In this document: positions 30,212-60,043 of the stretch, one piece after another
Position numbering within the stretch: position 1 is the first letter of the stretch
Layout of the letters: every line of letters starts with the position of its first letter
DNA from: a virus
Virus record (IMG/VR): IMGVR_UViG_3300021976_000006
Location: 30,232 to 94,231 of that record
Reading direction: 5' to 3' (one strand)
Length of the DNA stretch: 64,000 nt
Position numbers and translations under genes: made by a program
Notes under the pieces: model-generated
What the model was told of the DNA's origin: nothing
The model's database searches: none
Seen by the model: only the letters and a program-made list of their open reading frames with translations

Positions 30212-30350
30212 ACTTTTCTATAACTTCATTTAACTTAGTAACATCTTTATTATCAACAGCATCTTTAATACTTAACCAGAACTCTAATTGAAGAGTTGCT
30301 TCTTCCCACATTAAACTCCATTGTTCTGATGATATTTGATTGTCTTCCAT
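30192..30350 (-). CDS. Hypothetical acidic protein (52 aa)
   Basis: ATG-initiated frame MEDNQISSEQWSLMWEEATL continuing through an acidic helical protein to TAA. It overlaps the start of the nuclease gene by 20 nt and follows a 32-aa frame with almost no gap, as in an operon. Function unknown. Confidence 0.45.
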   Translation of the reverse strand: MEDNQISSEQWSLMWEEATLQLEFWLSIKDAVDNKDVTKLNEVIEKYEDKEV

Positions 30351-39259: not shown

Positions 39260-39629
39260 GGGGGTGCCTGGTTTTGACATTTAGTGATTATTATATTTTC
39301 AGCGGTTGGAAGCTTATATACAACCTTAAAATTTTAAGTAAACAATAACAGGCAAAACAATTAAATTGTCAGAAACAACTTTCAACGATATAATGCGTCA
39401 AGTATCTAACGTTGAATTAGAAATGGCTGCGTAAGCAATCATTAGATTAGGATATTAAGGGATTTTTAACCTTCAACTTAAAATTCCATCATTTTCCCAA
39501 TTTAGATTAGTGTAAATTGGATAACTTTTTCTAGGTTTTTTGAATAAAAATCTAGTTATTTTGTTAAAAGCTGTAACAAGAGATATAGTATTTTTTAGAT
39601 GGACAAGGGTTCGACTCCCTTCACCTCCA
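39260..39629 (+). ncRNA. ssrA: Phage-encoded tmRNA (transfer-messenger RNA)
   Basis: The 5' end GGGGGTGCCTGGTTTTGACA and the 3' end with a T arm (AAGGG-TTCGACT-CCCTT) and CACCTCC-A form a tRNA-like domain; the 7-bp acceptor pairs 39260-39266 with 39622-39628. A tag frame begins at a GGC resume codon (39351) and ends at TAA (39432-39434). It encodes 27 residues starting GKTIKLSETT and ending VELEMAA. The final Ala-Ala is typical of degradation tags, but the tag is longer than the short tags usual in Bacteroidota. CCA is not encoded. tmRNA rescues stalled ribosomes with SmpB, which is not in this window. Confidence 0.85.
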
Positions 39630-39732
39630 CGTAATACCCTGATTATCAATTAATTAGATAATATTCTACACGTTTGATTAGCGTTGGGATAAATAAATCG
39701 ATCTGCTTGTAGGCTCAAGGTAACCTTCAATA

Positions 39733-39784
39733 AATAATACAGGTGACACGTAGTCTTTGTACTCTCGGGAGTAACTGTATTATT
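39733..39784 (+). ncRNA. Closing-stem RNA element after tmRNA (52 nt)
   Basis: A 10-bp stem (39733-39742 with 39775-39784) encloses a hairpin TACTC-TCGG-GAGTA. The inner part resembles the TACTCCCGGAGAGA region of the element at 37020-37077. The rest of the gap 39,630-39,808 shows one weak hairpin (ATTATC/GATAAT) and no gene. Confidence 0.4.
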
Positions 39785-39808
39785 ATTTTAAACTTAAATT
39801 AAATAATT

Positions 39809-40285
39809 ATGAAAAAGAAATTAGAATTAGATGATCAAACTGCAAGATCAATATATAAAATAGCAGATATAGCAACTAAATTAGTATTAGAATCTAACTG
39901 GGGAAAAGAATTTTTTAGTGAAAAATTATCTGATAGAATTAAATCGTATGTAGATGTTTGTAAAGAATTATGTAGACCTATTTTAACAATAAAAGATTTT
40001 AAATTTTTACCTGAAAATCAAAGAGCTAAAGCTTTAGCAAATCACCAATGGGAAAATATTAGTGAATTATTTAACCAAGGATGGAAACCAGATTTTACAA
40101 ATATAAATCAAGCTAAATATTATGTTTGGTATGAAAGAAAATCTACTGGTTGGGTGGTGTGCTACTTCAGCGATCGGGGCTACTATTCTATCTGTGGGTC
40201 TGGTTTTTACTTTAAAGATTCAGAAACAGCTTTATATGTAGCTAATACATTTTTACCAATAATGACCATTATTTTAGAACCATAG
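39809..40285 (+). CDS. DGR target protein 1 (158 aa) with C-terminal variable region
   Basis: The N-terminal 100 residues are helical (DDQTARSIYKIADIATKLVL), followed by NQGWKPDFTNINQAKYYVWY and a C-terminal domain of about 45 residues containing the variable region. Codons 113-134 carry the varied positions (GWVVCYFSDRGYY). The GC-rich patch at 40148-40206 contrasts with the AT-rich rest and reflects A-to-G/T/C changes relative to the template. It has no signal peptide or fibre features, so it is probably intracellular. It shares the KYY/WYP-W-F domain layout with target 2. Binding partner unknown. Confidence 0.8.
   Translation: MKKKLELDDQTARSIYKIADIATKLVLESNWGKEFFSEKLSDRIKSYVDVCKELCRPILTIKDFKFLPENQRAKALANHQWENISELFNQGWKPDFTNINQAKYYVWYERKSTGWVVCYFSDRGYYSICGSGFYFKDSETALYVANTFLPIMTIILEP
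40146..40210 (+). repeat. DGR variable repeat VR1
   Basis: 65 bp aligned without gaps to TR1 (40315-40379). There are 17 differences, 16 of them where TR1 has adenine and one C-to-T near the 3' end. TR1 has 23 adenines, so about two thirds are substituted. It lies in the 3' part of target gene 1. Confidence 0.9.
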
Positions 40286-40404
40286 GGTTACATATTTTAC
40301 TTATAGTTTTATATCTAGTTAGGTAGTGAACTACTACAACAATCAGAACTACAATTCTAACTATGAGTCTAGTTTCTACTCAATAATAAATACTAATATG
40401 AACC
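40286..40404 (+). repeat. DGR template repeat TR1 within a stem-bounded RNA
   Basis: The template itself is 40315-40379. It contains AAC/AAT codons in the target frame and an in-frame TAG that becomes TGG in VR1, so it is not itself translated. The segment starts at the base after the target stop codon and is bounded by an inverted repeat, GGTT-(A)-CATATT (40286-40296) with AATATGAACC (40395-40404). A further hairpin, CACC-TCTT-GGTG, and an AAGACATT/AATGTCTT stem follow before the RT gene. Confidence 0.85.
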
Positions 40405-40482
40405 TCACCTCTTGGTGAAAAAAAGCGAAATCCAGAAAAGACATTAGTATATTAATAGAAAATGTCTTATGTTGAGTAAAAA

Positions 40483-41439
40483 ATGAAAAGAATAAATAAC
40501 CTCTATAATGATATTTGTAGTATTAATAATCTTATTCTAGCTGATAAAAAAGCTAGAATAGGAAAGTTAAAACAACTAGATATTATAAAACACGATAAAG
40601 CAAAAGGATGTAATATTTTAAAACTTCATAATATATTAATGGAGGAAAAATATAAAACATCTAAATATCATATATTTACTATATATGAAGGTAAGAAAAG
40701 AGAAATATATAAATTACCATATTATCCTGATAGAATAGTTCATCATGCTATTATGAATAAACTTGAATCTATTTTTGTATCTATATTTATTTCTAATACA
40801 TTTAATTGTATTAAAAATAGAGGAATAATGGGAGCTTATAAAGCTGTTAAAAAATCATTATTAGATATAGAAAATACTCAATATTGTTTAAAATTAGATA
40901 TAAGAAAATTTTATCCTAATATTAATAATAATATTTTAAAACTATTATTAAGAAAAAAGTTCAAAGATGAAAAATTACTAAAATTATTAGATGAAATTAT
41001 TAATAGTACAAAAGGACTACCAATTGGAAATTATTTAAGTCAATATTTTGCTAATTTTTATTTAACATATTTTGATCATTGGTTAAAAGAAATTAAAGGT
41101 GTTAAATATTATTTTAGATATTGTGATGATTTAGTTATATTATCTAGTAATAAGGAATATTTACATTTGCTATTTTTAGATATTCAAGATTATTTATCAA
41201 ATATATTAAAATTAGAAATTAAAAAAAACTATCAAATATTTCCAGTTAATATAAGAGGTATTGATTTTGTTGGTTATAAATTTTATCATAAATATATTTT
41301 ACTTAGAAAATCTATAAAGAAAAGATTCATTAAAGTTGCAAAATATAGTAAAGCTATACAATCATTAGCTGCTTATTTTGGATGGTTAAAATATTGTAAT
41401 AGCATAAACTTAAGAAATAAATATTTAAAAGATGAATAA
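40483..41439 (+). CDS. DGR reverse transcriptase (318 aa)
   Basis: Motifs in order: LKLDIRKFYPNI (motif A), IGNYLSQ (about residues 181-187, the [IVL]GxxxSQ form that marks DGR reverse transcriptases rather than the QGxxxSP of group II introns), YFRYCDDLVIL (YxDD catalytic box near residue 213), IDFVGYKF, and a C-terminal FGWLKYCNSINL. The enzyme copies the template RNA with errors at adenines. No maturase or endonuclease domain is attached, and no separate accessory gene (Avd) is visible. It overlaps target 2 by 8 nt. Confidence 0.92.
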   Translation: MKRINNLYNDICSINNLILADKKARIGKLKQLDIIKHDKAKGCNILKLHNILMEEKYKTSKYHIFTIYEGKKREIYKLPYYPDRIVHHAIMNKLESIFVSIFISNTFNCIKNRGIMGAYKAVKKSLLDIENTQYCLKLDIRKFYPNINNNILKLLLRKKFKDEKLLKLLDEIINSTKGLPIGNYLSQYFANFYLTYFDHWLKEIKGVKYYFRYCDDLVILSSNKEYLHLLFLDIQDYLSNILKLEIKKNYQIFPVNIRGIDFVGYKFYHKYILLRKSIKKRFIKVAKYSKAIQSLAAYFGWLKYCNSINLRNKYLKDE

Positions 41440-41827
41440 GAAAGAAGCAGAAAAAGCTTTAAATAAGCTACAATTAGAAGTTAATAAACTCAGAGATATA
41501 ATAGATGCTCCTGAAAGTTTATTTGATATTACTACATATACAGAAGTATGTAAAAGATTAAATATTACAGAGAAGTCTTTAAGTGAATTTGAAACTCTTA
41601 AAGAGTATAGATACCATCAGATATTAAATATTCAGAAATTATTCAATGAAGATGCTGTAAATCCTAGATGGTATCCTTGGTTCTCTAGAACTGGTTCTGG
41701 TCTGGTTTTCTTCATTTCTTCCTGCTTCAGTGACTGCTACTATGGGCAGGTTGCTTACTTCAAAGATAAAAAAACCTCTGATTATATAGGTAAGACATTT
41801 AAATTTATCTATAACGATTTAAAATAA
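41432..41827 (+). CDS. DGR target protein 2 (131 aa) with C-terminal variable region
   Basis: An N-terminal coiled coil (KKEAEKALNKLQLEVNKLRD) and helical region precede NPRWYPWF, then the variable region (residues about 86-109, TGSGLVFFISSCFSDCYYG) and a constant C-terminus VAYFKDKKTSDYIGKTF. It overlaps the RT gene by 8 nt and is followed by its own template. It has no export or fibre signals. Shorter than target 1, and similar to it mainly in the C-terminal domain. Confidence 0.8.
   Translation: MNKKEAEKALNKLQLEVNKLRDIIDAPESLFDITTYTEVCKRLNITEKSLSEFETLKEYRYHQILNIQKLFNEDAVNPRWYPWFSRTGSGLVFFISSCFSDCYYGQVAYFKDKKTSDYIGKTFKFIYNDLK
41689..41756 (+). repeat. DGR variable repeat VR2
   Basis: 68 bp aligned without gaps to TR2 (41846-41913): 18 differences, all 18 at template adenines (26 adenines available). 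Changes are to G, T and C, as expected for adenine-specific mutagenesis rather than drift. The flanks diverge on both sides, with a 2-nt offset downstream. Confidence 0.92.
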
Positions 41828-41834
41828 TAATATA

Positions 41835-41939
41835 GGTCAATATTAAACTAGTTCTAGTCTAGTTTTCAACAATTCTAACTACAACAATGACAACTACAAT
41901 GAGCAAGTTACTTTTACTTTAACAATATTGATGTTGACC
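41835..41939 (+). repeat. DGR template repeat TR2 within a stem-bounded RNA
   Basis: The template core is 41846-41913. In the target frame it is rich in AAC/AAT codons, the usual diversification codons. It is bounded by GGTCAATATT (41835-41844) and AATATT-GATG-TTGACC (41924-41939), an inverted repeat with a 4-nt bulge. It lies 8 nt after the target 2 stop. Confidence 0.85.
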
Positions 41940-42041
41940 ATAGCTCTTGCTAAAAAAATAAAATTAATAAAAAAGTCTTTAGTAATATTTATGAAAGAGA
42001 CTTATAAAAGTAAAATTAATATTAAAAACCTAAATTAAATA

Positions 42042-46616: not shown

Positions 46617-47384
46617 ATGTCACAAAAAAAGAAATTATTAATAGGTATTCCAGGATTTAGTAACTCTGATAAAATGTTTGGTGTAACTGGTAATTATATG
46701 CATTTTGCCAATAAATATGGTAATGTGCGTATTATTATGCCACATGAAGAGTTCGTAGAAGTGGACTTATTAATATTACCAGGAGGACTGGATTTATCTC
46801 CAAGTTCATATGGAAAAATCCCTGGTTATCAAACGTCAAACCATGATGTATTTAAAGAATATTTCTTTAAAAATAGGCTAGCAACCTATGTAGAAAAAGG
46901 TACACCTATCTTTGGTATTTGTTTAGGTTTTCAAAGTCTTAATGTTTTCTTTGGTGGAACATTAACTCAAAATTTACCTTTTCATCCACAAAGCCGTAAT
47001 AGATGGGAAGCAGCTCATGAGGTGATTTTAACTCAACAATATATACAATATCTTAAGAAACATCCTAAGCCAAAAACTAAGGATGAGAAAAAGAATATTC
47101 CAACTATTGAAGTTAATTCACATCACCATCAAGCTGTATGTATAACTACGAATGATGCTAATGAAATAATAAAAAGCGATCTTGCTAAAGGTTTCTATAT
47201 GGTAGCACATTATCCAGAAAGTTATGATACAAACGTTGTAGAAGCATTCAAACATGAAACTCTTCCTATTGCAGGAGTTCAATATCACCCTGAAGAATTC
47301 TTTGATGTTATATCTGATCAATTGATAAGGTCTATTTTACCTAAAGAGGTAGAAGAACCAAAGGAACAGTTAGAAGTTCAATAA
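46617..47384 (+). CDS. Class I glutamine amidotransferase-like peptidase (255 aa)
   Basis: The nucleophile elbow is PIFGICLGFQ with Cys102, and the His-Glu pair lies in GVQYHPEEFF. The oxyanion region LLILPGGLDLSP is typical of the PuuD/gamma-glutamyl-GABA hydrolase group of triad amidotransferases. Such enzymes cut gamma-glutamyl amide bonds or supply ammonia. It is the first of four glutaminase-type genes downstream and may trim a gamma-linked product. C-terminal acidic tail. Confidence 0.8.
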   Translation: MSQKKKLLIGIPGFSNSDKMFGVTGNYMHFANKYGNVRIIMPHEEFVEVDLLILPGGLDLSPSSYGKIPGYQTSNHDVFKEYFFKNRLATYVEKGTPIFGICLGFQSLNVFFGGTLTQNLPFHPQSRNRWEAAHEVILTQQYIQYLKKHPKPKTKDEKKNIPTIEVNSHHHQAVCITTNDANEIIKSDLAKGFYMVAHYPESYDTNVVEAFKHETLPIAGVQYHPEEFFDVISDQLIRSILPKEVEEPKEQLEVQ

Positions 47385-47389
47385 AAAAT

Positions 47390-47457
47390 AATAAGTAGTA
47401 GGTGCGTGTGCGTATTAGCAGGCTTAATTTGGGCTATTGGTCAACCTACTACTTATT
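47390..47457 (+). ncRNA. Closing-stem RNA element before polB (68 nt)
   Basis: A perfect 14-bp stem (47390-47403 with 47444-47457) encloses 40 nt with short G/C-containing hairpins. It ends 21 nt before the polymerase start codon, so it may also act as a leader. Confidence 0.5.
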
Positions 47458-47478
47458 TATTAAAAGAGAGGGAGATTA

Positions 47479-49392
47479 GTGAGTGAGGAAATAAAAGATA
47501 GAAAAACGTTTGTATATGATATTGAAACAATTAAATCAGTATTCACGTATACAGCTATTAATATCGATACACTAGAAATAGTAAAATATGTAATACATAA
47601 AGAAAGAAATGATTTATTTTTATTAATAAAACATTTAAAACAATGTAAAGGATTAATTGGATTTAATAATCTCAATTTTGATTATCCAATAATACATATG
47701 ATACTAACAGATCATATTGATTGGTTAGATTTTTCTAATGAAGAAGTAATTGATATTATATATAGAAAAGCTCAATATATAATTAATGGTCAAAATCAAG
47801 AAGGATTTTTTCCTTCAATAAGAGATAAAGAAGTTATAATTCCACAACTAGATTTATTTAGAGTTTGGCATTATAATAATAAAGCTAGAATGACATCATT
47901 AAAATCTTTACAGATTAGTATGAATTATCCAAATGTATTGGATATGCCTATTCATCATAGTAAAGAAGATGTAACTATAGAAGAAGTAGAAGAAATTCTA
48001 AAATACAATCTTAATGATGTGCTATCAACTTTTGAATTCTATAAGAAATCAATTGAGAAAGTAGCATTAAGAAAACAAATACAAGCTAAATATAAAATAC
48101 CTTGTATTAACTATAGTGATAGTAAAATAGGTGAAAGCTTATTATTAAGTTTATATAGTAATCAAACTGGTGAGAATTCTTGGGACATTAAGAAATTAAG
48201 ATCTTATAGAAGTTCAATAGCCTTTAAAGATATTATACTAGACTACATTAAATTTGAATCAAAAGAGTTCAATGAACTACTAAGTTATCTAAAGAACAGA
48301 ACAATAACAGAAACTAAAAAAGCTTTTGAAAAATCTGTAAGATATAAGGGATTTCAATATGATTATGGTACTGGTGGTATTCATGGCTGTATAAAATCTG
48401 GAGTGTATGAATCTGATGATAAATATATAATAATAGATGCTGATGTCGCTTCTCTATATCCTAATGTAGCAATTAAGAATAGAATGTACATAGAGCATCT
48501 AGGAGAGACTTTCATTGATCTATATGATAAAGATATAGTACAAGAAAGATTAAGAGCTAAGAAAGCAGGAGAGATGTCTATTTCAGATGCTCTTAAGTTA
48601 AGTGCTAATAGTGTATATGGTAAATCAAATGATGAGAATAGTTTTCTCTATGATCCTAAATATACTATGGCTACAACTATTAATGGTCAATTATTGCTAA
48701 CTATGTTAGCAGAGATGATTGTTGATGGTGTTAAAGATATAACAGTACTTCAGGTTAATACTGATGGTATAACTGTTAGAATTCCTAGAGAACAACAAGA
48801 AGTATACTATGCTTATTGTAAAGAATGGGAAAAGAAAACTAATTTAGATTTAGAATATGTTGAATATTCTAAAATGGTAATTAGAGACGTCAATAATTAT
48901 ATTAGTGTTAAATTAGACGGTAAAACTAAAAATAAAGGTGCTTTTGAAATTAATAAAATAGTTGGTAATGAACCAGCTTATCATAAAGATAATAGTTTTA
49001 AGGTAATACCTATTGCTATTGAGAAGTATTTTGTTGAAGGAATTCCTGTTTCTGATACTATTTATAATCATAAAAATATATATGATTTTTGTGGTAGACA
49101 GAAATTTGGAAGAGATTCATCAGGAGAAATTCATTATCTTGAAAATTCTACTATTAAAATAGAAAAACAACAAAAGAATGTTAGATATTATATATCTAAA
49201 TCTGGAAAATCCTTTGTAAAGAAATATACAAAAGGTTCAAATGAGGCAATAAATAAAGGATTTCAAGTTGAAATCTTTAATGAATATATAGAAAAAGATA
49301 TTAAAGATTATAATATAAATTATAGTTTTTATATTAATGAGGCATATAAGATTATATATGCTGTTCAAAATGATCAAATAGCACTTTTATAA
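47479..49392 (+). CDS. Family B DNA polymerase with 3'-5' exonuclease (637 aa)
   Basis: The exonuclease domain shows FVYDIETI (Exo I, about residue 13), GLIGFNNLNFDYPI (Exo II) and LKYNLNDVLSTF (Exo III). The polymerase domain has DADVASLYPNV (motif A, about residue 318), LKLSANSVYGK (motif B) and VNTDGI (motif C, with Gly in place of the usual Ser/Thr). It is compact for family B. The GTG start is supported by an AGGGAG ribosome site. Some crAss-like lineages carry PolB where others carry PolA. It replicates the phage genome. Confidence 0.9.
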   Translation: MSEEIKDRKTFVYDIETIKSVFTYTAINIDTLEIVKYVIHKERNDLFLLIKHLKQCKGLIGFNNLNFDYPIIHMILTDHIDWLDFSNEEVIDIIYRKAQYIINGQNQEGFFPSIRDKEVIIPQLDLFRVWHYNNKARMTSLKSLQISMNYPNVLDMPIHHSKEDVTIEEVEEILKYNLNDVLSTFEFYKKSIEKVALRKQIQAKYKIPCINYSDSKIGESLLLSLYSNQTGENSWDIKKLRSYRSSIAFKDIILDYIKFESKEFNELLSYLKNRTITETKKAFEKSVRYKGFQYDYGTGGIHGCIKSGVYESDDKYIIIDADVASLYPNVAIKNRMYIEHLGETFIDLYDKDIVQERLRAKKAGEMSISDALKLSANSVYGKSNDENSFLYDPKYTMATTINGQLLLTMLAEMIVDGVKDITVLQVNTDGITVRIPREQQEVYYAYCKEWEKKTNLDLEYVEYSKMVIRDVNNYISVKLDGKTKNKGAFEINKIVGNEPAYHKDNSFKVIPIAIEKYFVEGIPVSDTIYNHKNIYDFCGRQKFGRDSSGEIHYLENSTIKIEKQQKNVRYYISKSGKSFVKKYTKGSNEAINKGFQVEIFNEYIEKDIKDYNINYSFYINEAYKIIYAVQNDQIALL

Positions 49393-49409
49393 ATAAATTT
49401 AAATACATC

Positions 49410-50147
49410 ATGGAAAAAAAGGTATTATACAAAACCAAATTTGGTAAACCTATTGTCGAAGGACAAAAATATTCTGTTGTTACCAAAGATAACAGAGTAA
49501 TACAAACAGTTGCATCTACAAGAACACCTGAAGATGAATCAATTGTTGAAAGATTTTTAACAAAAACTGGAGCTGACAAATTTGTTAAAGCTCAATTAGT
49601 TAAACCAGGACCAACAAGATCTGCTAAAGAAGCTGCTGAAGATATAATAGCTAAATTACCTATTTTTGAACAATTGGAATATATTTGTGAAAAAGAAGAA
49701 TTTGTTGAATGGTTAAAACGTAATACTTTAAAAGTAAATTCTAACTCTACTGGTGTATTTTTACTTCAAGGAAATACTAGTCGTAGATTAATGTCATTTA
49801 CTTGGAATATGAGAAGTAATACAATGTCTTGTTGTGGAGCTACAGAAATGAATAATCATAGTGGTGAATTAGATGCTACTGCTGCTAGATCTTTAACAAA
49901 GGAAAGACTTATAATTTTAGCAGAATATCTAGTTAATGATTTTAATTTAGCATGTAGAATGGGTGCTAAAAATAGAGGAGTTGTAACCTATGTTAGAAAT
50001 CCAGATAACTTATCAGATTTATCTGCTAGAATTGGATTCTTATTAGCAGCATCAGATTTGTTTGTTAAAACAGGTCGATTTATAAATCCTAATTCAAGTA
50101 ACACTTTAGATGTATATGCTATATCTGATAAATGGTATGTGAGTTAA
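49410..50147 (+). CDS. Conserved hypothetical protein (245 aa)
   Basis: Soluble alpha/beta protein with two adjacent Cys in TMSCCGATEMNNHSGEL and a helical C-terminus. It lies between the polymerase and the 658-aa gene. No recognised motif; a replication accessory is possible by position. Confidence 0.5.
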   Translation: MEKKVLYKTKFGKPIVEGQKYSVVTKDNRVIQTVASTRTPEDESIVERFLTKTGADKFVKAQLVKPGPTRSAKEAAEDIIAKLPIFEQLEYICEKEEFVEWLKRNTLKVNSNSTGVFLLQGNTSRRLMSFTWNMRSNTMSCCGATEMNNHSGELDATAARSLTKERLIILAEYLVNDFNLACRMGAKNRGVVTYVRNPDNLSDLSARIGFLLAASDLFVKTGRFINPNSSNTLDVYAISDKWYVS

Positions 50148-50162
50148 TAAAAACTAAAAATA

Positions 50163-52139
50163 ATGAATGAGGAAGAAATAAAAGTAGCAGAAACAGAATA
50201 TTCTAGAGCTATAAGTGAGGATGAAATAAAAGAAAAATTTAATTCATATAGAGAAAGTATAAAATCAGGAGTTGATCCTTACATAAACTATAGAAATCAA
50301 CAACTAAATGCTGAATATCTTCAAAATAATAATCCTTTTATGAATGATGTATTTGGCTCAAAACCTAAAACTCCTATAGAGTCATATAGAACAGTTTTTA
50401 TGGATACTAGTGATGCACCTGATACTTATAATGGGAGTTTTAATATTCAATTCAAAGATAATCCTGCTTTTAATATAAAAAATGAAGAAATAGAGACAAT
50501 ACCAGAGCCAAGAATAAAAGTACCAGAACCAGTAGTTGGATCAATGGCTTGGTATACTGAAAAATTTGGAAAAACTATTGCTGAAAAAGTTGTTAAAAAA
50601 GCATATAGTAAAGAATTACTACAGTCTATTGGTAATTCAAATAGTGACCAATATGGTCAAGCAAAACCAGTAAATATTAGTAAAATAATGGTTAATAATA
50701 ATACTGTAAATTATAAATATGGATCTTATACTAATTTACCAGAAGCGGTTCCTGAAGAAAATATACAAGTAGGTGCCTTTGATTTTGATGACTTACCAGA
50801 TTTAGATTGGGATAATGCAGAAAAATTAGAAAATGAAGTAGAAGAACAACCAAAAGTAATGAAAAAAGATTATCAATATAGAGTAATCTTATCTCATAAT
50901 AAGATGAAAATTAATTATATTCAATGTCCTGTTGATTACAAAGGTTCAGATGCTGATTTATTAGCAACCGCTACTGTTGGAAGTAATAGAGATATAAGAT
51001 TAATTGGTTATATTCCTAAATTTGATAAGAGCGGTAAAGAAATAATACCACCAAAGAAAAAAGGTAAATATATGCCTCCTAAATATCCTGGTCTAGTTAA
51101 TAGAAATACAATTCCTATATCAGAGTTTATTGAAAAAACAAATAGTATATTTACTAGAGAAATAACTTTTGATGAATTTTTTAGAGCTAAAAGTATTTCT
51201 AGAATGAATAAAAGACAACTTAATCAACGAATAGTTGATGAAAATTGTCCAATTAATATGTTAGTTTATGATAATATTTCTAGTCAATATGGTATCACTA
51301 CTGGAAATATCAGAAATAATACATTTTTAGAGGTTATTACTATTGCTAATATGCATGGTGCTAATGGATATATTGATAAATCTCAATTTAGGTTAGAGGA
51401 ATTCAATTCTGCCGTTATTGATATTGTCGCTGATGACAGAATATTAATGAGATTTTTTAGAGCTAAACCTGGAAGTTCACTTAAATCTAGAACTCTTTAC
51501 GGAGGTACCATAGCTGAAAGAAAGAGATTAGATGGTAAAATATTAGGTGATGATAGAATATTAATACGTGAAAACTATGTAATTGATATTAATAAACCTG
51601 GTAATTTAGTATTACAAATTGTTAACGATAATAGAGACGCATATATATATACATTAGCTGAAGAATCTAAATTATTAACAATTAATCCTGATCAACTTCA
51701 AAAACTTAGAGGTAAAACTATTAAAAAAGTTGAGAAAAATAAACAAGCTATTATTAGAGATGATAGAAGACTTAAGGGTCTTAAAAAAGGAGATGTAGTA
51801 TTGGTGGAGGCCATATTGACAAAACCAAGTAAAAGTTTATCTTTAGTAACAATTATGGCTAATGGTAAAAGACAAACAATTTTCTTAAAACAATTAAAGC
51901 CTTATGCTGAAATCGATAAAAAAACCGTTAAAAAAGAGAGTAAACCAAGTGGTATCATCGACGTCAGTAAAACGTCAGGCAGTCTCTACAACGAAAGTAG
52001 TAAAGAAACCACTAGTGAAATTAAACCTAAAGCCGTTGTTAAAAAAAGAGCAGCCAAAACAACTGTTATCAGCGAAGGTATTAGTTCGTACATCTTCTCA
52101 AACAAAGATCACTCAAACATCGTCGAGCTCCCTTTTTAA
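50163..52139 (+). CDS. Large hypothetical protein next to the ligase cluster (658 aa)
   Basis: The N-terminal 240 residues are hydrophilic and low in complexity. A central region (about 330-500) contains paired DDRILMRFFRAKPG and DDRILIRENYVIDI units. The C-terminal 90 residues are Lys/Ser/Thr-rich. The last 236 nt overlap the ATP-grasp gene in another frame. It might be a substrate or scaffold for the adjacent ligases, but that is speculation; no domain is recognised. Confidence 0.5.
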   Translation: MNEEEIKVAETEYSRAISEDEIKEKFNSYRESIKSGVDPYINYRNQQLNAEYLQNNNPFMNDVFGSKPKTPIESYRTVFMDTSDAPDTYNGSFNIQFKDNPAFNIKNEEIETIPEPRIKVPEPVVGSMAWYTEKFGKTIAEKVVKKAYSKELLQSIGNSNSDQYGQAKPVNISKIMVNNNTVNYKYGSYTNLPEAVPEENIQVGAFDFDDLPDLDWDNAEKLENEVEEQPKVMKKDYQYRVILSHNKMKINYIQCPVDYKGSDADLLATATVGSNRDIRLIGYIPKFDKSGKEIIPPKKKGKYMPPKYPGLVNRNTIPISEFIEKTNSIFTREITFDEFFRAKSISRMNKRQLNQRIVDENCPINMLVYDNISSQYGITTGNIRNNTFLEVITIANMHGANGYIDKSQFRLEEFNSAVIDIVADDRILMRFFRAKPGSSLKSRTLYGGTIAERKRLDGKILGDDRILIRENYVIDINKPGNLVLQIVNDNRDAYIYTLAEESKLLTINPDQLQKLRGKTIKKVEKNKQAIIRDDRRLKGLKKGDVVLVEAILTKPSKSLSLVTIMANGKRQTIFLKQLKPYAEIDKKTVKKESKPSGIIDVSKTSGSLYNESSKETTSEIKPKAVVKKRAAKTTVISEGISSYIFSNKDHSNIVELPF

Positions 52140-53010
52140 GACTAAAGCCAAAGAAAGAGTTGAGAAATCTAAAGGGCCTTGGAAACCAAAGATAAGAAGT
52201 AGACATCCATCTCATAGTATTTTGAGAAGGAAACTACCTTTTTTACCTTTTTTATCCGTTGTTCGTTTAGGATCTACTACTGAAGTACCTGATACTTTAG
52301 ATAAAGGTGGAAGACGTATTGAATGTAATTCTATTGAAGCTATTAGGAATAGTTCTTCTAAATTTAGAATGAAAGAATGTTTTATGAAAGCTGAAGTAAA
52401 AACAGCTAATTGGACAGATAAAGTAGATAATATTGGAACTTTACATGAAGATTGGAAAACCCCAATTGTAGCTAAAAGTATCTATGGATCTAAAGGTAAA
52501 GGTAATACTTTAATTAGAACACAAGATGAATTTGATCAGTGGAGAAAAGGTAGAGATATAAATCACTATATTTTTGAAGCTTTTTATAATTATTCATTAG
52601 AATATCGACTTCATATTACAAGTGAAGGTTGCTTCTACACATGTAGAAAGGCTTTAAAGCCAGATGTACCTGAATCTGAAAAATGGAGAAGACATGATGA
52701 TGTTTGTGTATGGTTAATGGAAACCAATGAAGGTTTTAAAAGACCTAATAGCTGGAATGATATTGTTAGTGATTGCATCAAAGCTTTAAAAGCTGTTGGT
52801 GCAGATGTATTATCCTTTGATGTAAAAGTCCAAGGAGGAAATACAGGAAAAGGGAAACAGAGAGAGTATCAAGACTATATATTAATCGAGTGTAATTCTG
52901 CAAGTTCTATGTCAAATGGTGTAGACGAAGTGTCAGTTTGTGCTAGTAAATATATTGAGGAGATACCAAAAATATTGCGTAGAAAACATGGGTTACAAAA
53001 CAAACTATAA
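51904..53010 (+). CDS. ATP-grasp ligase (368 aa)
   Basis: From about residue 115 the ATP-grasp fold is visible: VVRLGSTTEV, then TPIVAKSIYGSKGKGNTLIR (the nucleotide-binding Lys/Gly loop), YIFEAFYNYSLEYRL, VLSFDVKVQG and ILIECNSASS (metal-binding Glu/Asn). The first 100 residues are Lys/Ser/Thr-rich and mostly encoded in the overlap with the 658-aa gene, so the start is uncertain. Enzymes of this fold join carboxylates to amines via acyl-phosphate. Neighbouring amidoligase and amidotransferase genes suggest peptide or protein modification. Confidence 0.8.
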   Translation: MLKSIKKPLKKRVNQVVSSTSVKRQAVSTTKVVKKPLVKLNLKPLLKKEQPKQLLSAKVLVRTSSQTKITQTSSSSLFKTKAKERVEKSKGPWKPKIRSRHPSHSILRRKLPFLPFLSVVRLGSTTEVPDTLDKGGRRIECNSIEAIRNSSSKFRMKECFMKAEVKTANWTDKVDNIGTLHEDWKTPIVAKSIYGSKGKGNTLIRTQDEFDQWRKGRDINHYIFEAFYNYSLEYRLHITSEGCFYTCRKALKPDVPESEKWRRHDDVCVWLMETNEGFKRPNSWNDIVSDCIKALKAVGADVLSFDVKVQGGNTGKGKQREYQDYILIECNSASSMSNGVDEVSVCASKYIEEIPKILRRKHGLQNKL

Positions 53011-53785
53011 AATATTTAATACATCAGATAAAACAACGGTATTCTCTAATAGGAGTACCGCTTGTTTTGCTGAATGGAGTAGTGTACCATCTGATGATAA
53101 AGCTAAAGGCTTTAAAAAAGAATGGAGTATGGAAGTCTATTCAACATTATCTGATATGAATCTAAAAGATTATTCTTTAGTGAAATATTGGATGGAGATA
53201 TTAAATGATTTAGGATTAAAAGCTACTTATGAAAAAGTAGATTTAAAAAAATATGTTGGTGAATTACCAATAGGACTTGATAAAACAGATAAAGCTTGGA
53301 TGTGGACATTTCATTTTGCAGATTATACATCAAAAGCACAATTACGATTTGCTTTACATTTGATGAGATATCTATATGAAGTAGATATGTGGAAAGCAAT
53401 TGAAGAAACCAAAAAACTATCTAAAGAATATCCAAATATACATCCATTTGAGTTATTTCAATATGCTCAAATGTGGACTTGTGGATATTTAGGAGGTGGT
53501 CATATATTATGGAGCAGTAGAAGCTTTAAAAGATTTGTAACTAAATCTGATTTAGAAACTTATTATAAAAAATGGGCTATAGAAAAAGAAAATTACAATG
53601 AAGTACATGGTATGTTAGCTAAATATAGTTTATATACCTATAAATATGTATCTTATACTTTACCAAAAGATGAAAAATCTGAAAGAAATAGAATACTACA
53701 AGATAAATTAATGAAGGGACCTTTATTAACTATTGAACAATATAAAGAAGAAATTAAAAAATTTGAAAATGACGAAACCAAATGA
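52988..53785 (+). CDS. Conserved protein of the ligase cluster (265 aa)
   Basis: The ATG at 52988 (MGYKTNYKIFNTSDKTTVFS) is chosen over an upstream start that would overlap the ATP-grasp gene further. Trp- and Tyr-rich alpha/beta protein with LRFALHLMRYLYEVDMWKAI. It is coupled to the ATP-grasp gene (23-nt overlap) and the next amidotransferase (17-nt overlap), so it likely serves the same pathway. I do not recognise the family. Confidence 0.5.
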   Translation: MGYKTNYKIFNTSDKTTVFSNRSTACFAEWSSVPSDDKAKGFKKEWSMEVYSTLSDMNLKDYSLVKYWMEILNDLGLKATYEKVDLKKYVGELPIGLDKTDKAWMWTFHFADYTSKAQLRFALHLMRYLYEVDMWKAIEETKKLSKEYPNIHPFELFQYAQMWTCGYLGGGHILWSSRSFKRFVTKSDLETYYKKWAIEKENYNEVHGMLAKYSLYTYKYVSYTLPKDEKSERNRILQDKLMKGPLLTIEQYKEEIKKFENDETK

Positions 53786-54494
53786 TAAAATTCAAAACCA
53801 GTGGAAAGACAAGTTTAAAGTATTTGTTATAGGAGGTAATAGATTTTATGCCAATTGGGTAGGTGAGACAGTAGCTACTATGGAAGAAGCTGATATAGTC
53901 TTATTTACAGGTGGAGAAGATGTTACTCCAGAACTATACAATGAACCTCAACATCCAAAAACCTTCTGTAATCCGGAAAGAGATGCTGATGAGTCTAAAG
54001 CTTTTGATAAAGCTCAAGAACTTAAAAAGCATTGTCTTGGAATTTGCCGCGGAAGTCAGTTTTTGTGCGTTATGGCAGGAGGAAAATTAGTACAACATCA
54101 AGAAAATCCGGTATTTGTTCATAATACTATTTCATATGATCTAGATGAAAGTTTTGAAATTACTTCAACACATCATCAAGCACAATATCCATATGATTTA
54201 CCAAAAGATAATTATAGAGTATTAGCATGGACAAAAGGAATAAGTAATATTCACCAAGATGGTAGTGGCCAAGAAATGCCTTTACCAGGTGAAAAAGAAT
54301 GTGAAATTGTATTTTATAAAAATACAAAATCATTAGGAATCCAAGGACATCCAGAAATGATGTTTAGAAAAGATAAATATGAACATAGTTTTAAAATATT
54401 GAATAAAATACTTATAAATTTTATGAACAATGTTTATAATATGACTTGTGGAAGAACAATGGTACAAATAATGGATATAGAACCAGAATTATAA
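53769..54494 (+). CDS. Class I glutamine amidotransferase-like protein (241 aa)
   Basis: Starts at 53769 (MTKPNDKIQNQWKDKFKVFV). The nucleophile elbow is CLGICRGSQFLCVMAGG and the His-Glu dyad is SLGIQGHPEMMF. DIVLFTGGEDVTPELY forms the oxyanion side. The STHHQAQYPYDLP region matches gamma-glutamyl hydrolase-type members. Diverged from the 255-aa copy at 46.6 kb, so the two probably have distinct substrates. Confidence 0.8.
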   Translation: MTKPNDKIQNQWKDKFKVFVIGGNRFYANWVGETVATMEEADIVLFTGGEDVTPELYNEPQHPKTFCNPERDADESKAFDKAQELKKHCLGICRGSQFLCVMAGGKLVQHQENPVFVHNTISYDLDESFEITSTHHQAQYPYDLPKDNYRVLAWTKGISNIHQDGSGQEMPLPGEKECEIVFYKNTKSLGIQGHPEMMFRKDKYEHSFKILNKILINFMNNVYNMTCGRTMVQIMDIEPEL

Positions 54495-54496
54495 GA

Positions 54497-54877
54497 ATGA
54501 TAAATAAAAAAATATTGGTCTATGGAAGCCTAAGATCAGGAGAATTTAATTTTAACAGATTTAAAGAATATTTTCCAAATGGAATTGAATACATTAAAAC
54601 AACAACGGTAAAAGGATTTGATCTACATAGTTTAGGTTCTTATCCTGGTATAGTTAAATCTAAAGATCCAGAAAAAGAATTAGTAGTAGATATTATGCAT
54701 TGTGATAATCCTTGCTACTATGCTATTAATGGTATGGAATTAGGTGCTGGATATAAAAATGAAGATGTTTTAATTGAAGGTGTTCCTCATACAATTTATG
54801 TATATCAAGGTAATCCAAATAGACTAGTAGAGTCTGGTGATTGGAGTAAACACTTAAAAGATGTCAAAACTAGATAA
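54497..54877 (+). CDS. Gamma-glutamylcyclotransferase-like (AIG2-type) protein (126 aa)
   Basis: The ATG at 54497 begins MINKKILVYGSLRSGEFNFN, containing the YGSL substrate loop; INGMELGAGYKNED supplies the conserved Glu and the GAGY segment. Compact AIG2-like members of this fold usually act on small gamma-glutamyl amines. It lies between an amidotransferase and a COOH-NH2 ligase, as in other predicted phage amide-bond clusters. Confidence 0.75.
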   Translation: MINKKILVYGSLRSGEFNFNRFKEYFPNGIEYIKTTTVKGFDLHSLGSYPGIVKSKDPEKELVVDIMHCDNPCYYAINGMELGAGYKNEDVLIEGVPHTIYVYQGNPNRLVESGDWSKHLKDVKTR

Positions 54878-55055
54878 AAGTTGGAAAGAAGAAGTACCTA
54901 ATTATACAGATAGTTGTAAAACTACTTATATAGCAGGTGCTTCTGCTTTTCAAGAAAGAACTATTAGAAAGCTAAAAAGAGAAATATCTATACACAAAAA
55001 ATGCTCCTCTTGGTATAAGAAAAGTAGGACTAAAAATTGCGTTAGAAATTATTAA
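54861..55055 (+). CDS. Small Cys-containing basic protein (64 aa)
   Basis: Begins MSKLDKSWKEEVPNYTDSCK and is Lys/Arg/Ser-rich with Cys residues spread through it. Overlaps the GGCT-like gene by 17 nt. Given its genomic setting it could be a small modified substrate, but nothing shows this directly. Confidence 0.4.
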   Translation: MSKLDKSWKEEVPNYTDSCKTTYIAGASAFQERTIRKLKREISIHKKCSSWYKKSRTKNCVRNY

Positions 55056-55083
55056 AAATTTAAAATCACATTAACCATTAGAT

Positions 55084-55902
55084 ATGGAAAATAAAATTAA
55101 TATGGGTAGCATCTTAGTAGGTGCTGATCCTGAAGCATTTGTAAGAGATAAATATACAGGAGAAATTGTTTCAGCAATTGGACATATTCCTGGTGATAAA
55201 GATCGTCCTCACCCTATTAGTGAGCAAGGGCATGCTATTCAAACAGATAATGTTATGGTAGAGTTTTGTGTTCCACCATCTAAATCAGGTAAAGAACTAT
55301 TTGGTCATATTACCTATTGTTTAGGTATTATTAATAGTATGTTACCAGCTAACATAGAAACTATTGTACAGGCATCTGCAACTTTAGATAAACGATTTTT
55401 AAAATGTAAACAAGCAAAAACATTTGGATGTGATCCTGATTTTGATGTTTATACTTTAGCTCCTAATACTCCTCCTGATTCAAAAGGTCAATTGAGAAGT
55501 GCTGGTGGACATATTCATGTTGGATATGAACAACCTAACTTTCAACATAATCTTAAGATTGTAAGAGCTATGGATTTATTCTTAGGTATTCCATCTATTT
55601 TATTAGATAAAGATACTGAAAGAAAGAAAATGTATGGTAAAGCAGGAGCTTATAGAGAAAAACCATATGGTGTTGAATATCGTGTATTATCTAATTTTTG
55701 GATAGAAAATGAAATAACTACTGAATGGGCATTTAATCAAACTATGAAAGCTGTTCAATATGCTTCTGAAGAAGATTGGATTGATGATGAAACATCAGTT
55801 AATATTCAATTAGCAATTAATAACCAAGATTTAGCTTTAGCTTGTACAATTGCTAAACGTTTTGATATACTTTTGGACTTTCAAGAGAGATATTTAGTTT
55901 AA
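55084..55902 (+). CDS. Phage COOH-NH2 ligase, glutamine-synthetase-like fold (272 aa)
   Basis: The N-terminal ILVGADPEAFVRDK and the metal-binding SAGGHIHVGYE are signatures of the phage COOH-NH2 ligase family, distant relatives of glutamine synthetase and gamma-glutamylcysteine ligase. QTDNVMVEFCVPPS gives the conserved acidic strand. It would form amide bonds using ATP. Full length, no membrane segment. Adjacent class I and II amidotransferases support a shared pathway. Confidence 0.85.
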   Translation: MENKINMGSILVGADPEAFVRDKYTGEIVSAIGHIPGDKDRPHPISEQGHAIQTDNVMVEFCVPPSKSGKELFGHITYCLGIINSMLPANIETIVQASATLDKRFLKCKQAKTFGCDPDFDVYTLAPNTPPDSKGQLRSAGGHIHVGYEQPNFQHNLKIVRAMDLFLGIPSILLDKDTERKKMYGKAGAYREKPYGVEYRVLSNFWIENEITTEWAFNQTMKAVQYASEEDWIDDETSVNIQLAINNQDLALACTIAKRFDILLDFQERYLV

Positions 55903-55918
55903 TATAAAATAATTAAAA

Positions 55919-57664
55919 ATGAATTTAGAAAACATTATACTTACAATAGTCTTAATAAATACCATTGCCTTTGGTATTACAAAATTTATATTTAAGCGTA
56001 GATATACAGCATTTTTTTGTGGTATAATTGGTTTTAGTTCAAAAAAGAATTCTAATCCTGATAAGCTATCTTTGTTAATGCTTCATAACTCTCTAAAAAG
56101 AGGTGAAGATAATACAGGTAGTTATAGTCCAGAAAATGGAGTTCTTAAGTCTACTAAAAACGCAACAGATTTTTTATCTGAATTTGAGATGCCTAAAACA
56201 CATCTATTTATAGGTCACGTTAGAAAATCTAGCGTTGGATCTAAAATAGAACAAAATGCTCATCCAATTGAATATGATAATATAGTACTTGCTCATAATG
56301 GTACTTTGAAAAATTATTGGAAAATGCTAGCTGATGCTAAAATTGACAGTAAAGATATTAATACTGATACTCAAGTTTTAACAAAATTGTTAGATGAAGA
56401 TAGTAAGAAAGAAAATGTAGTGTTTTCTACATTAAGTTTATATGAAGGAGCCGCTGCATTATTATTCACAGATAAAAGACAACCAGATATTCTATATGCT
56501 TATAGAAATAATGAAAGACCATTATTTTGGGGTATGGTAGAAGGAAGTATGTATATATCTTCAATGGAAGAAAGTTTAAAAATTATAGGATGTGTTGAAA
56601 CTGAAGAATTTCTACCATTATATGTTCATACTATTAAAGGTGGGAAGATATTATCATCTACATTTTATAAAGAAAGAGAAGAACCAGTTATTGCAAGACA
56701 TACTACTTATCGTCCAACAGAGTATGGAAATATTACAAATGTTAAATATAAAAACGCTGAAGATAGTGCTGAAGAATTTGTTAAAAAAATAAAAGCAGCA
56801 GAAAGCGTTAATACAGAGAAATTAGTTGATAAATGGGTAAAAGCAACAATTGATTTTGACGATGAATATGGTGATGAAACAAATAAAGCAAAAATAACCA
56901 GAGGTAAATGGTATTTTATCGATGATAGCTCAGTTACTAATGAGTTTGATATTCAATTTAAAGATGATGCTAACAATAGTGTGTGGTTAAACAAATTTAT
57001 GTTTAATACTACTTTTATTGGTTATCCAAATGGATATTGTCAAGCAGTTGTTAATATTTTTGATTTAGATAAAAATCCAGCAAGTGTCTTATTCACAAAA
57101 GATACAATTATATCATTAGCGCCAAATGCAATTATTGATAAAGAAAATAAATTAAGCTGTGTTGCAAACTCAGATATTTTTGATATTGAAGTTAGTTGTA
57201 TTCGTCCTGTTGAAGACAGTGAAGTTGAAAAGTTTGCAGAGAAATCTATGAAACAAATTAATGAAGAACTGAAAGGAGGCTCGCAGAAAGCTATAAATTT
57301 TACTGATGTGGTACTGAAAAAAGACGGTACCAATATCTCAGAATTTGTAATGAACTCTGATAGAGATGATGATACAATGATAATATTACCACAAATGAAA
57401 ATTGTTAAAGATGATAAAGAAGAATCACCGTTTGTAGATGCTGAAACTGAAATAATAATAGAACCTGATGAAACTGAAGAAGTAGTTCATTATATTCTAG
57501 ATGTTCTCAGTGGACCAATGGATGATATTCAAGAATTAGTTATGGCAACTACATTTACAGAATTACAAGAAAAAGTTCAAGAATTTAAAGACTTAATGGA
57601 TGAATCATATAATGTTCAGATGGTTAAGGAGACTTTACTTGATGATAGTCAAACTGAAAGCTAA
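55919..57664 (+). CDS. Membrane-anchored class II glutamine amidotransferase-like protein (581 aa)
   Basis: An Ntn-type glutaminase domain begins at Cys34 (CGIIGFS), followed by GEDNTGSYSP, HLFIGHVRKSSVG and NIVLAHNGTLKNY, as in PurF/GlmS-type domains that release ammonia. Unusually, Cys34 is preceded by a hydrophobic helix (residues 5-25) and a basic RR patch, with no start codon just before the Cys. Either this is a propeptide removed by self-cleavage or the domain is displayed at the membrane in inactive form. The C-terminal 300 residues are acidic and unassigned. Confidence 0.75.
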   Translation: MNLENIILTIVLINTIAFGITKFIFKRRYTAFFCGIIGFSSKKNSNPDKLSLLMLHNSLKRGEDNTGSYSPENGVLKSTKNATDFLSEFEMPKTHLFIGHVRKSSVGSKIEQNAHPIEYDNIVLAHNGTLKNYWKMLADAKIDSKDINTDTQVLTKLLDEDSKKENVVFSTLSLYEGAAALLFTDKRQPDILYAYRNNERPLFWGMVEGSMYISSMEESLKIIGCVETEEFLPLYVHTIKGGKILSSTFYKEREEPVIARHTTYRPTEYGNITNVKYKNAEDSAEEFVKKIKAAESVNTEKLVDKWVKATIDFDDEYGDETNKAKITRGKWYFIDDSSVTNEFDIQFKDDANNSVWLNKFMFNTTFIGYPNGYCQAVVNIFDLDKNPASVLFTKDTIISLAPNAIIDKENKLSCVANSDIFDIEVSCIRPVEDSEVEKFAEKSMKQINEELKGGSQKAINFTDVVLKKDGTNISEFVMNSDRDDDTMIILPQMKIVKDDKEESPFVDAETEIIIEPDETEEVVHYILDVLSGPMDDIQELVMATTFTELQEKVQEFKDLMDESYNVQMVKETLLDDSQTES

Positions 57665-57668
57665 AATT

Positions 57669-58310
57669 ATGAAAGAAGTAATAATAGACGGAAAACCTTA
57701 TCCCGCAGATAGTAAATACATAACTCAAGATTATATTAGTGGACAGTATATATTAACCTCAAAAGCAATAAATGTTTTAACATCTATAAATCTATTAAGA
57801 GATACAGGTTATGATGGAGAGGGAACAATTAAGCTAATGAGTATAGCTGAGGTTCCTCGCTATTTAAGAGAAGGTTTAATTAAAGTATTAATAACCAGAT
57901 TTGGTGATATTTACATTATTCCTAATGTAGCAATACGAGGAAGAGGTATATTACACGAATCTAGAAATGCAGATACTGCACATTTTATGTATGATGATTA
58001 TACACATCCTCGTCAAAATGTTGCTAATAAATTTAGAGCTTTTGATAATATTGTTAAAGCATTTAGAGATATTGACAATAGATTGATTCCTCAAGAAGAT
58101 AGAAGAATGCTTATGAAGAGGAATTTTGAGTATGGTGTTGATTCTACTACCTATAAAATACTTGGTGGATTTGGTTACACTTTTGGAGTTGAACTAGAGA
58201 CAAACTCTGGTAGACTATCACAAGATGATGTAATTGGATTAAATCTTAGATGTGAATTTGATGGTTCATTAAGAGATAACCCAGATCAAAGAAAAGAAGA
58301 TGTTCTTGGT
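57669..58310 (+). CDS. Amidoligase (second COOH-NH2 ligase type), exon 1
   Basis: The ATG at 57669 (MKEVIIDGKPYPADSKYITQ) is chosen over an upstream in-frame start inside the previous gene. The frame contains the amidoligase entry motif GYTFGVELETNSGRL and CEFDGSLRDNP. It then loses similarity at about 58310 and soon hits a stop. Joined to exon 2 it gives a 489-residue protein whose CGVHVHIGG motif lies in exon 2. The enzyme family forms amide bonds with ATP. Confidence 0.8.
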
Positions 58311-58331
58311 AAAAGAAAAAAATCATAAATT

Positions 58332-58363
58332 ATTTGTTTAATTTATAAATTATATGTATATTT
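58332..58363 (+). promoter_or_regulatory. Bacteroidota-type promoter inside the amidoligase intron
   Basis: TTTG (58332-58335), 20 nt, TATATTTG (58356-58363), then a GGAGGAG ribosome site and the ATG of the endonuclease at 58383. Confidence 0.65.
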
Positions 58364-58382
58364 GTACTGGAGGAGAATGTTA

Positions 58383-59084
58383 ATGAAAACTCAAGTACAA
58401 GAAGATATTTTTGATAATTTAAATAATGAAAAAGTAAATTATTTTTTAGGATTACTAGCTACAGATGGTTCAATATATGAAAATAGAATTGAATTAGCTT
58501 TAGCTGAAAAAGATTTAGATATAGTAGAACAATTTAAAGAATTTTTAGATAATAAAGTTACAATAAGAGAGAAATATAAAACTATAAAAGATAAAACTTT
58601 TAAGTCATATAGATCTGCTTTTAGAAGTAATAATATTGTTAACACTTTAAATGGTTATGGAATAACTAAAAGAAAAACATTAAATTTAAAATTAACAATA
58701 CCATTTAATTATAATTTATTGAGAGGTATAATAGATGGAGATGGTTGTTTTTTATTTAACCCTGAAAAATATTGTAGTAAACTACATATAGTCTCAGCTT
58801 CTAAAGATTTTATAAATCAAATTATAAAATTTTATGAACAAGAAAACTATAAATATAATTTACTAGTTGTTATTCGTGGAAAATCAATTTACTACAATTT
58901 AAATATTTGTGGTCAAAAGGATTTATTAAGAATAATAAATAATTTATATCTAAACGCTAATGTATTTTCAAAAAGAAAATACGCAACGGCCCAACAGATT
59001 AGAAATAATCTTGTTGAAAGACTCGAAACTCAGGGAACCAGCGTTAGGAATCCTGAAGCAAGCCTGCAACTAAATGAAGAATAA
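58383..59084 (+). CDS. LAGLIDADG homing endonuclease (233 aa), intron-encoded
   Basis: ATG 58383 follows a strong GGAGGAG site, which decides the start. Two LAGLIDADG helices are visible: YFLGLLATDGSIYE (about residue 21) and LLRGIIDGDGCFLF (about 113), so the protein is a single-chain monomer. The C-terminal 35 residues overlap the intron core sequence. It would cut intronless amidoligase alleles and spread the intron. Confidence 0.88.
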   Translation: MKTQVQEDIFDNLNNEKVNYFLGLLATDGSIYENRIELALAEKDLDIVEQFKEFLDNKVTIREKYKTIKDKTFKSYRSAFRSNNIVNTLNGYGITKRKTLNLKLTIPFNYNLLRGIIDGDGCFLFNPEKYCSKLHIVSASKDFINQIIKFYEQENYKYNLLVVIRGKSIYYNLNICGQKDLLRIINNLYLNANVFSKRKYATAQQIRNNLVERLETQGTSVRNPEASLQLNEE

Positions 59085-59215
59085 TTAAAGGAAAAAATGT
59101 GATTTAATTATTTTATGATATTTAGCCAAGAGGAAGCAGCAACGACTATAATGGGTCCATCTTAATATTAAGTTAAAGATGAAGGGATAGTCTAGGTGGA
59201 GAAAACCACTAGGGG

Positions 59216-60043
59216 GAATATATTACAGGAGTTCTAAAAGGAGATGCAGGAATGTATCAATTACAGAAAGTATGTAATAAGCTTGCTCAAAGATGTACAA
59301 TCAACAATAAATGTGGAGTTCACGTTCATATAGGTGGAGCAAAATTCACTAAAGAAAATATTGTATATATGTATATGTTAGGAGAGATTCTACAAAATGA
59401 AGTATATCAAATGCTACCAGCTTCAAGGAGAAGTAATAGTTATTGTAAGAAATTAAAAAATCTTACATTAAGTCCTAAAGCTTTAGCAGGTGTTAATACT
59501 TCTATTGGATATGAAATCCTAATAGATGATTTTTACAATAAAATTTTCAAAGAAGTTTCTCATGGTAAAGCACCAGATAGAAACTCTAATAAGAGAACAA
59601 ACCATCCAATGGGTAGTAAATGTGGTTATAATAAAGATACTCAGCGTTATTGCTGGTTAAACTTTGTTACTGCTATGTTTAATACTAAAAATAATCCAGA
59701 AGCTATGACTCTAGAGTTTAGATCTCATAGTGCAACTTTAAACTATAATAAGGTTAAAGCTTGGGTTAAAATTTGTATGGCATTTGTTTCTTTTGTTGAG
59801 AATAACAAAGCTTCTATCAAAAGAGGTTATTGGTTAGACTCAGAGAAAAATGAATATTCAATTGATTTATCTACAATTATTAAAGCAGCTTATCCTAAAG
59901 GATACAAACTTCTATTGAAGTATGTAGAAGAAAGGAAAAATAAGTTCTTTTATGATAAAGGAGACATTGAAGAAGAAGAGTATAAAACAGACAAAGACGG
60001 TATTAAACAACTAACTATTAAGGAGGACAGCCAATGTGTGTAA
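59216..60043 (+). CDS. Amidoligase, exon 2
   Basis: The frame runs from EYITGVLKGDAGMYQL through NNKCGVHVHIGGAKFT, the metal-binding motif of the amidoligase family, to a Lys/Glu-rich C-terminus. Only together with exon 1 does it form a full enzyme (489 aa). The first ATG in this exon (59252) would give a truncated product, so splicing is expected. The stop overlaps the start of the next gene by 10 nt. Confidence 0.8.
   Translation, partial: EYITGVLKGDAGMYQLQKVCNKLAQRCTINNKCGVHVHIGGAKFTKENIVYMYMLGEILQNEVYQMLPASRRSNSYCKKLKNLTLSPKALAGVNTSIGYEILIDDFYNKIFKEVSHGKAPDRNSNKRTNHPMGSKCGYNKDTQRYCWLNFVTAMFNTKNNPEAMTLEFRSHSATLNYNKVKAWVKICMAFVSFVENNKASIKRGYWLDSEKNEYSIDLSTIIKAAYPKGYKLLLKYVEERKNKFFYDKGDIEEEEYKTDKDGIKQLTIKEDSQCV

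Follow-up and report, generated by a model that had tools for sequence, protein, structure and literature searches.

That phages can bear tmRNAs, among them permuted ones, is established, and the interesting part of the locus described here is an apparent switch of gene form together with long tags shared among phages. According to PMC9004378, a tmRNA is carried by 402 of 18,146 phages and 53 of 133 unique structures are two-piece; the permuted tmRNA of Melnitz and other aquatic phages described there is phage-borne, as is the one treated here, but it is of the alphaproteobacterial type and belongs to unrelated phages. PMC11915505 counts 79 bacteriophage tmRNA sequences, gives 10 as the most frequent tag length and places circular permutation of tmRNA in three main bacterial clades and in mitochondria. 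Passages mentioning tmRNA in PMC6235969, PMC9805569 and PMC8863827 concern software or references only. Literature searches on tmRNA in crAss-like phages, on permuted tmRNA in phages and on two-piece tmRNA in Bacteroidota listed no paper on the form of the tmRNA in crAss-like phages, though the supplement of PMC11915505 may list some of the genes. As annotations, crAss-like tmRNAs are not new; those of cr124_1 and cr10_1 are already annotated as tmRNA in GenBank.

The DNA analysed in this work (the window) is a stretch of 64,000 nucleotides corresponding to positions 30,232 to 94,231 of a 94,231-base virus record (IMGVR_UViG_3300021976_000006, here labelled G000). From its proteins, the phage was assigned to the crAss-like phages, nearest to Suoliviridae. 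Its capsid, portal and terminase matched PHROG families (phrog_11589, 6547, and 6681) and a large structural protein matched the crassvirus muzzle (PF25731). The capsid matched 146 phage records, the best of them 50% identical, and eight of the nine capsid-matching records inspected were Crassvirales of the Suoliviridae (41–50% identity for records of this family); the ninth was FpV4, which is classified under Fipvunavirus with no order given and has a capsid 31% identical. Searches for DNA similarity of the window to known phages, near or distant, gave no match.

The earlier note on this DNA had claimed a full phage ssrA gene, and this was borne out. Positions 39260–39630 of the plus strand were read by ARAGORN as a tmRNA with the tag GKTIKLSETTFNDIMRQVSNVELEMAA followed by a stop, and the Rfam covariance model RF00023 matched 39260–39632 (+) at full length, scoring 58.7 bits and so exceeding the curated cut-off, 47 (E-value 2.1e-20 for the 64 kb window searched with all 4227 Rfam families), which settles in the affirmative the covariance-model check that the note had named; the same record encodes a capsid, portal, terminase and muzzle of crAss-like type. 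The permuted tmRNA model RF04321 had no match anywhere in G000. The tRNA-like ends with a T arm that the note described were also recovered, with seven of seven acceptor pairs, the alanine identity pair G3-U70 and a T arm aligned by cmscan at high posterior. The gene end given there, 39629, is the discriminator base, and the 3' end reads CAC-GTA, so that no CCA is encoded. Likewise, the frame from a GGC resume codon (39351) to TAA (39432–39434) yielded with ARAGORN the same tag of 27 codons (Table 1).

Table 1. Features of the tmRNA gene, in window coordinates.
Feature	Position	Strand	Basis
tmRNA (ssrA) gene, standard one-piece form	39260..39632	+	RF00023 and ARAGORN; RF04321 without match
Acceptor stem, 5' strand GGGGGUG	39260..39266	+	7/7 pairs with 39622-39628, G3-U70 present
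PK1-like pseudoknot directly before the tag	39298..39339	+	39304-39308 with 39321-39325; 39312-39316 with 39335-39339 (interleaved stems, script)
Tag reading frame GKTIKLSETTFNDIMRQVSNVELEMAA, GGC resume codon to TAA	39351..39434	+	ARAGORN; likeness to phage tag family A
T arm AAGGG UUCGACU CCCUU	39605..39621	+	cmscan alignment, high posterior
Acceptor stem, 3' strand CACCUCC, plus discriminator A	39622..39629	+	CCA not encoded

Folding of the RNA as a single strand gave a z-score of -2.77, equalled by 1 of 100 shuffles. Downstream of the tag the Rfam alignment was of low confidence, and the PK1-like stems (GGUUG/CAACC with GCUUA/UAAGU) were matched by 54 of 300 shuffles and are suggestive only. 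A terminator-like site was not found for the gene, and promoter-like sites were no commoner than in shuffled sequences. The window gene is a complete standard-form tmRNA of a phage. It shares with the bacterial standard tmRNA (RF00023) the model match, acceptor, T arm, G3-U70 pair, resume codon, tag and stop, and differs from it in being phage-borne and AT-rich, without encoded CCA, and in its 27-residue tag ending in MAA.

The surroundings of the gene held several other elements. Between the tmRNA and the first target gene of a retroelement lies a non-coding stretch (39640–39808) with an inverted repeat (39721–39742/39775–39796). The diversity-generating retroelement itself occupies 39809–42000, 180 nt downstream of the tmRNA, with its reverse transcriptase at 40483–41439 and two template/variable pairs (about 40311–40390 to 40142–40220, and 41841–41916 to 41684–41759), in which mismatches fall almost exclusively at template adenines and each template directly follows its own target gene. 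An Rfam RT-18 RNA (40406–40482; 44.6 bits, cut-off 41.3) between the first template repeat and the reverse transcriptase may be part of the template RNA of the retroelement. Further on, at 46617–61284, there is a gene cluster with glutamine amidotransferase, COOH.NH2 ligase and amidoligase genes.

In order to place the tag, a reference set of 69 unique standard tmRNAs, 62 of them viral, was assembled from the stretches of an IMG/VR scan with a D-arm plus T-arm motif (83 stretches), the loci sharing the 30-nt 3' end of the window gene, the window gene itself and that of FpV4. Two loci stayed outside the set, L084 (tmRNA at 66.2 bits) and L093, ARAGORN having made no tmRNA call in them. Six tags that ARAGORN had started too late (L160, L174, L218, L211, L182, and L185) were extended in frame by hand, and the 13-residue tag of L233 is probably still misread. 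All 69 tmRNAs displayed seven of seven acceptor pairs and G3-U70 while using 15 different acceptor 5' strands, which indicated that the acceptor pairs co-vary.

The usual tag of Bacteroidota is GENNYALAA; in this comparison it turned up in viral contigs only (L164, L176, and L222). The window tag differs from such host-like tags, and to this extent its description as unusual in the earlier note was right; among phage tmRNAs, on the other hand, it is ordinary, since 50 of the 62 unique viral standard tags, a motif-selected sample, have at least 20 residues (the remaining 12 are no longer than 16) and five end in MAA.

Two families of long tags recurred: family A, LSTxTFEDAMxFV...AA, with 19 distinct tags, and family B, QIxANMNxVxxIL, with seven, the latter occurring, for example, in L187 and L195 (records of 72–73 kb), L182 and L211. 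The window tag shares with family A (e.g., DVELSTMTFEDAMAFVGADYAVAA) the core LS-x-x-TF-x-D-x-M, and its ELEMAA end is identical with that of L165 and L186. In pairwise alignment, the score of its best family A match was reached by none of 4000 shuffles that left the AA end in place, by 2 of 4000 after removal of the last three residues and by 0 of 4000 after removal of the last six. The family A profile gave 9.5 bits (attained by 1 of 5000 shuffles), falling to a weak 1.4 bits (918 of 20000) without the last five residues of the tag. Pairwise alignment with family B was not significant, and for the other long tags p was 0.0185 when the AA end was included and 0.23 and 0.35 when the tag was trimmed. 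Used as tblastn queries against phages, neither the window tag nor a family A tag gave a match, and the family A records run against the capsid profile showed no crass-type capsid.

The body of the RNA told otherwise. Its resume codon is GGC, whereas family A uses mostly GAC or GCA, and in a FastTree nucleotide tree the window gene stood beside L185 (support 0.77) among family B tmRNAs, outside the family A clade, so that tag and RNA body do not fit together neatly. The first 20 nt and the last 30 nt equal those of the family A members L082, L085, L087, L088, L091 and L092, a likeness of ends inflated by the selection of the standard set with a D-arm/T-arm motif that the window gene also bears. 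On these comparisons, the window tmRNA is probably akin to phage tmRNAs in general, whereas for family A specifically it is the tag alone that points to kinship.

The same 30-nt 3' end was identical in 12 IMG/VR stretches and also in eight stretches of bacterial and archaeal genome collections, from Clostridia (two), Selenomonadales (three), Succiniclasticum, Anaerococcus and Fibrobacteraceae. Capture from one of these bacteria was considered and rejected: ARAGORN found a tmRNA in seven of the eight stretches, with tags of 9–13 residues unlike that of the window, and the identity of the 30 nt therefore looks independent in origin.

Between same-length pairs of family A tag frames, 141 differences fell on the first codon position, 108 on the second and 345 on the third; where codons differed by a single base, the change was synonymous in 193 cases and non-synonymous in 78. 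This bias by codon position and the excess of synonymous changes indicated that the tags are under coding selection. Such selection on the tag frames of related phage tmRNAs bears on a reading in which the RNA would bind host SmpB or ribosomes and mainly block host trans-translation. A CDS-less form from phage DS6A is reported, in PMC11915505, to inhibit the endogenous tmRNA in E. coli; such a decoy, however, needs no tag, whereas the window gene has kept an unbroken tag frame from resume codon to stop, and we consider this reading improbable. The conservation of the tag front in family A suggests that the front part of the tag may serve as a binding site or initiation segment.

The nearest large relative of the window phage, G001 (92,469 bases; capsid 84% identical), carried a tmRNA of the other form. 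Its gene is circularly permuted (RF04321, 68.3 bits, cut-off 47), with the 3' half and an encoded CCA first, then 62 bases and the 5' half, and its tag is AKVIPMTGMQVRLAA. Both genes lie in the same interval, flanked by the same conserved genes; the distance to a shared downstream gene is about 6.2 kb in the window and 6.0 kb in G001, and both genes point the same way with respect to the DNA polymerase gene and the replication genes. Within the 11 whole records searched (G000, G059 and nine named phages), RF04321 exceeded its cut-off in three (cr124_1, cr130_1, and cr10_1); below it were cr52_1 (41.3 bits), cr115_1 (37.5 bits) and a weak partial match in G059 (26.8 bits). From 347 IMG/VR capsid relatives in all, 80 were taken and 45 of these, picked by length, were searched for tmRNA: two permuted genes (G001 and G032) and no standard one were above cut-off. 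Neither form was found in G004, close by capsid but a 44-kb fragment, nor in G018 (81 kb).

Seven of eight permuted genes checked by script had all seven acceptor pairs and G3-U70, the gene of G025 not being detected by the script. The permuted tmRNAs of G001, G032, cr124_1, cr130_1 and cr10_1 share with the window gene the phage order and, for G001, interval and orientation as well; they differ from it in their swapped halves, with 21–104 nt between them, and in tags of 12–16 residues. The match in G025 (37.6 bits) had by eye a non-standard T loop and was treated as degenerate; a tRNA-Tyr-like gene lies within its intervening sequence (L325, 1500–1700), and one tRNA-Ala case of this kind is reported as unique in PMC11915505. 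A permuted call in G013/L089 overlapped a tRNA-Ala and was left out of the count, and a pattern built from the permuted crAss resume sites was uninformative, since ARAGORN called no tmRNA in any of the 29 stretches that it matched. RAGATH-20 (119.6 bits; L152, 1910–2012, cr52_1) and RAGATH-9 (97.0 bits; L153, 2732–2910, cr10_1) motifs were located upstream of the permuted tmRNAs of these two gut crAss-like phages.

These relatives also speak to the notion that the window gene is a functionless copy of a host ssrA, a passenger or former attachment site left by imprecise excision. According to PMC11915505 and PMC9004378, integration at host ssrA is common; the window gene, however, is whole at both ends with all acceptor pairs kept, its tag is not host-like, and relatives keep a tmRNA in the same interval in the other form. 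Such an origin appears highly implausible.

Standard tmRNAs occurred again in more distant crass-like phages. The cultured phage FpV4, with a crass-like capsid, has an unannotated one (58.2 bits). Its tag, which by eye comprises 35 residues, recurs unchanged across 29 F. psychrophilum phage records, among them KT876724.1 (81947–82361, locus L150). G059, with a full crass-type capsid (E 5.5e-72), has a standard tmRNA at 102.6 bits. The FpV4-group and G059 tmRNAs resemble the window gene in crass-like capsid, standard form and long tag (35 and 28 residues), while belonging to other tag families and much more distant phages. The standard tag of G059, AKEAKVVPMFPQGVNVGQSEGVQLRVAA, read by hand, resembled the permuted tag of G001 (local alignment, 1 of 20000 shuffles; global, 0 of 20000) in a comparison that was picked only once the resemblance had been seen.

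A capsid tree built from 20 records grouped G000 (standard) with G001 (permuted) and G004 at a support of 1.00 (inner branch 0.52) and placed FpV4 and G059 outside. The close kinship of a standard and a permuted bearer implies at least one change of form near the window, by replacement or by rearrangement, and from these sequences the form of the gene seems to switch within this phage order. Rearrangement would mean that the permuted gene of the sister was turned back into one piece within the window lineage, with no replacement from outside; the shared interval and similar distances to the same downstream gene fit this, and the likeness of the G059 and G001 tags implies that the form can change with the tag staying. 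The window tag, however, is unlike that of G001 (alignment score 16, against 42 for the best family A match), and the window ends are nearer to those of standard phage tmRNAs, seven permuted tmRNAs ranking 47–75 of 75 in closeness to them, in a comparison whose standard set was motif-selected. We regard such a reversal as unlikely. The low rank of the permuted ends favours replacement, and an origin of the standard gene of the window by replacement is thus favoured on moderate evidence.

No SmpB gene was found in G000, G001, G003 or G004 with a search that was positive in 10 of 14 control genomes, so the window tmRNA most likely relies on host SmpB, AlaRS and proteases. Very probably, it is a standard one-piece tmRNA of a crAss-like phage that acts through these host factors and derives from a pool of long-tag phage tmRNAs. 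CCA would be added by the host and the RNA charged with alanine by the host AlaRS; with host SmpB it would then reach ribosomes that have stalled, during infection, on cut or truncated mRNAs. There translation would move onto the tag, and the unfinished protein would be released carrying an added Ala and the 27 tag residues. Its new MAA end, a hydrophobic residue followed by AA, is expected to be read by a host protease of the ClpXP type, and the longer front of the tag probably aids the start of unfolding or binds an adaptor. For the phage, the benefit would be freed ribosomes and recycled amino acids; the note had also proposed that the RNA might replace or compete with the tmRNA of the host or redirect tagged proteins. 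The ancestry of the gene lies most likely in a phage-exchanged pool of long-tag standard tmRNAs rather than in a fresh copy of host ssrA, with the gene now placed in the interval held by a permuted two-piece tmRNA in the sister phage.

More broadly, we tentatively propose, at somewhat less than even confidence, that Crassvirales may be a further lineage with permuted tmRNAs, in which the form switches with the tag kept (G059/G001) or through replacement from the phage pool (window), and in which the conserved tag fronts may act as a second signal, such as a docking site for an adaptor or protease, steering unfinished proteins. Close relatives with the standard and the permuted form in one interval would offer a way to study permutation and its reversal, and with the conserved long tags and the cultured hosts of the FpV4 group, the question of why phages carry their own ribosome-rescue RNA comes within experimental reach.
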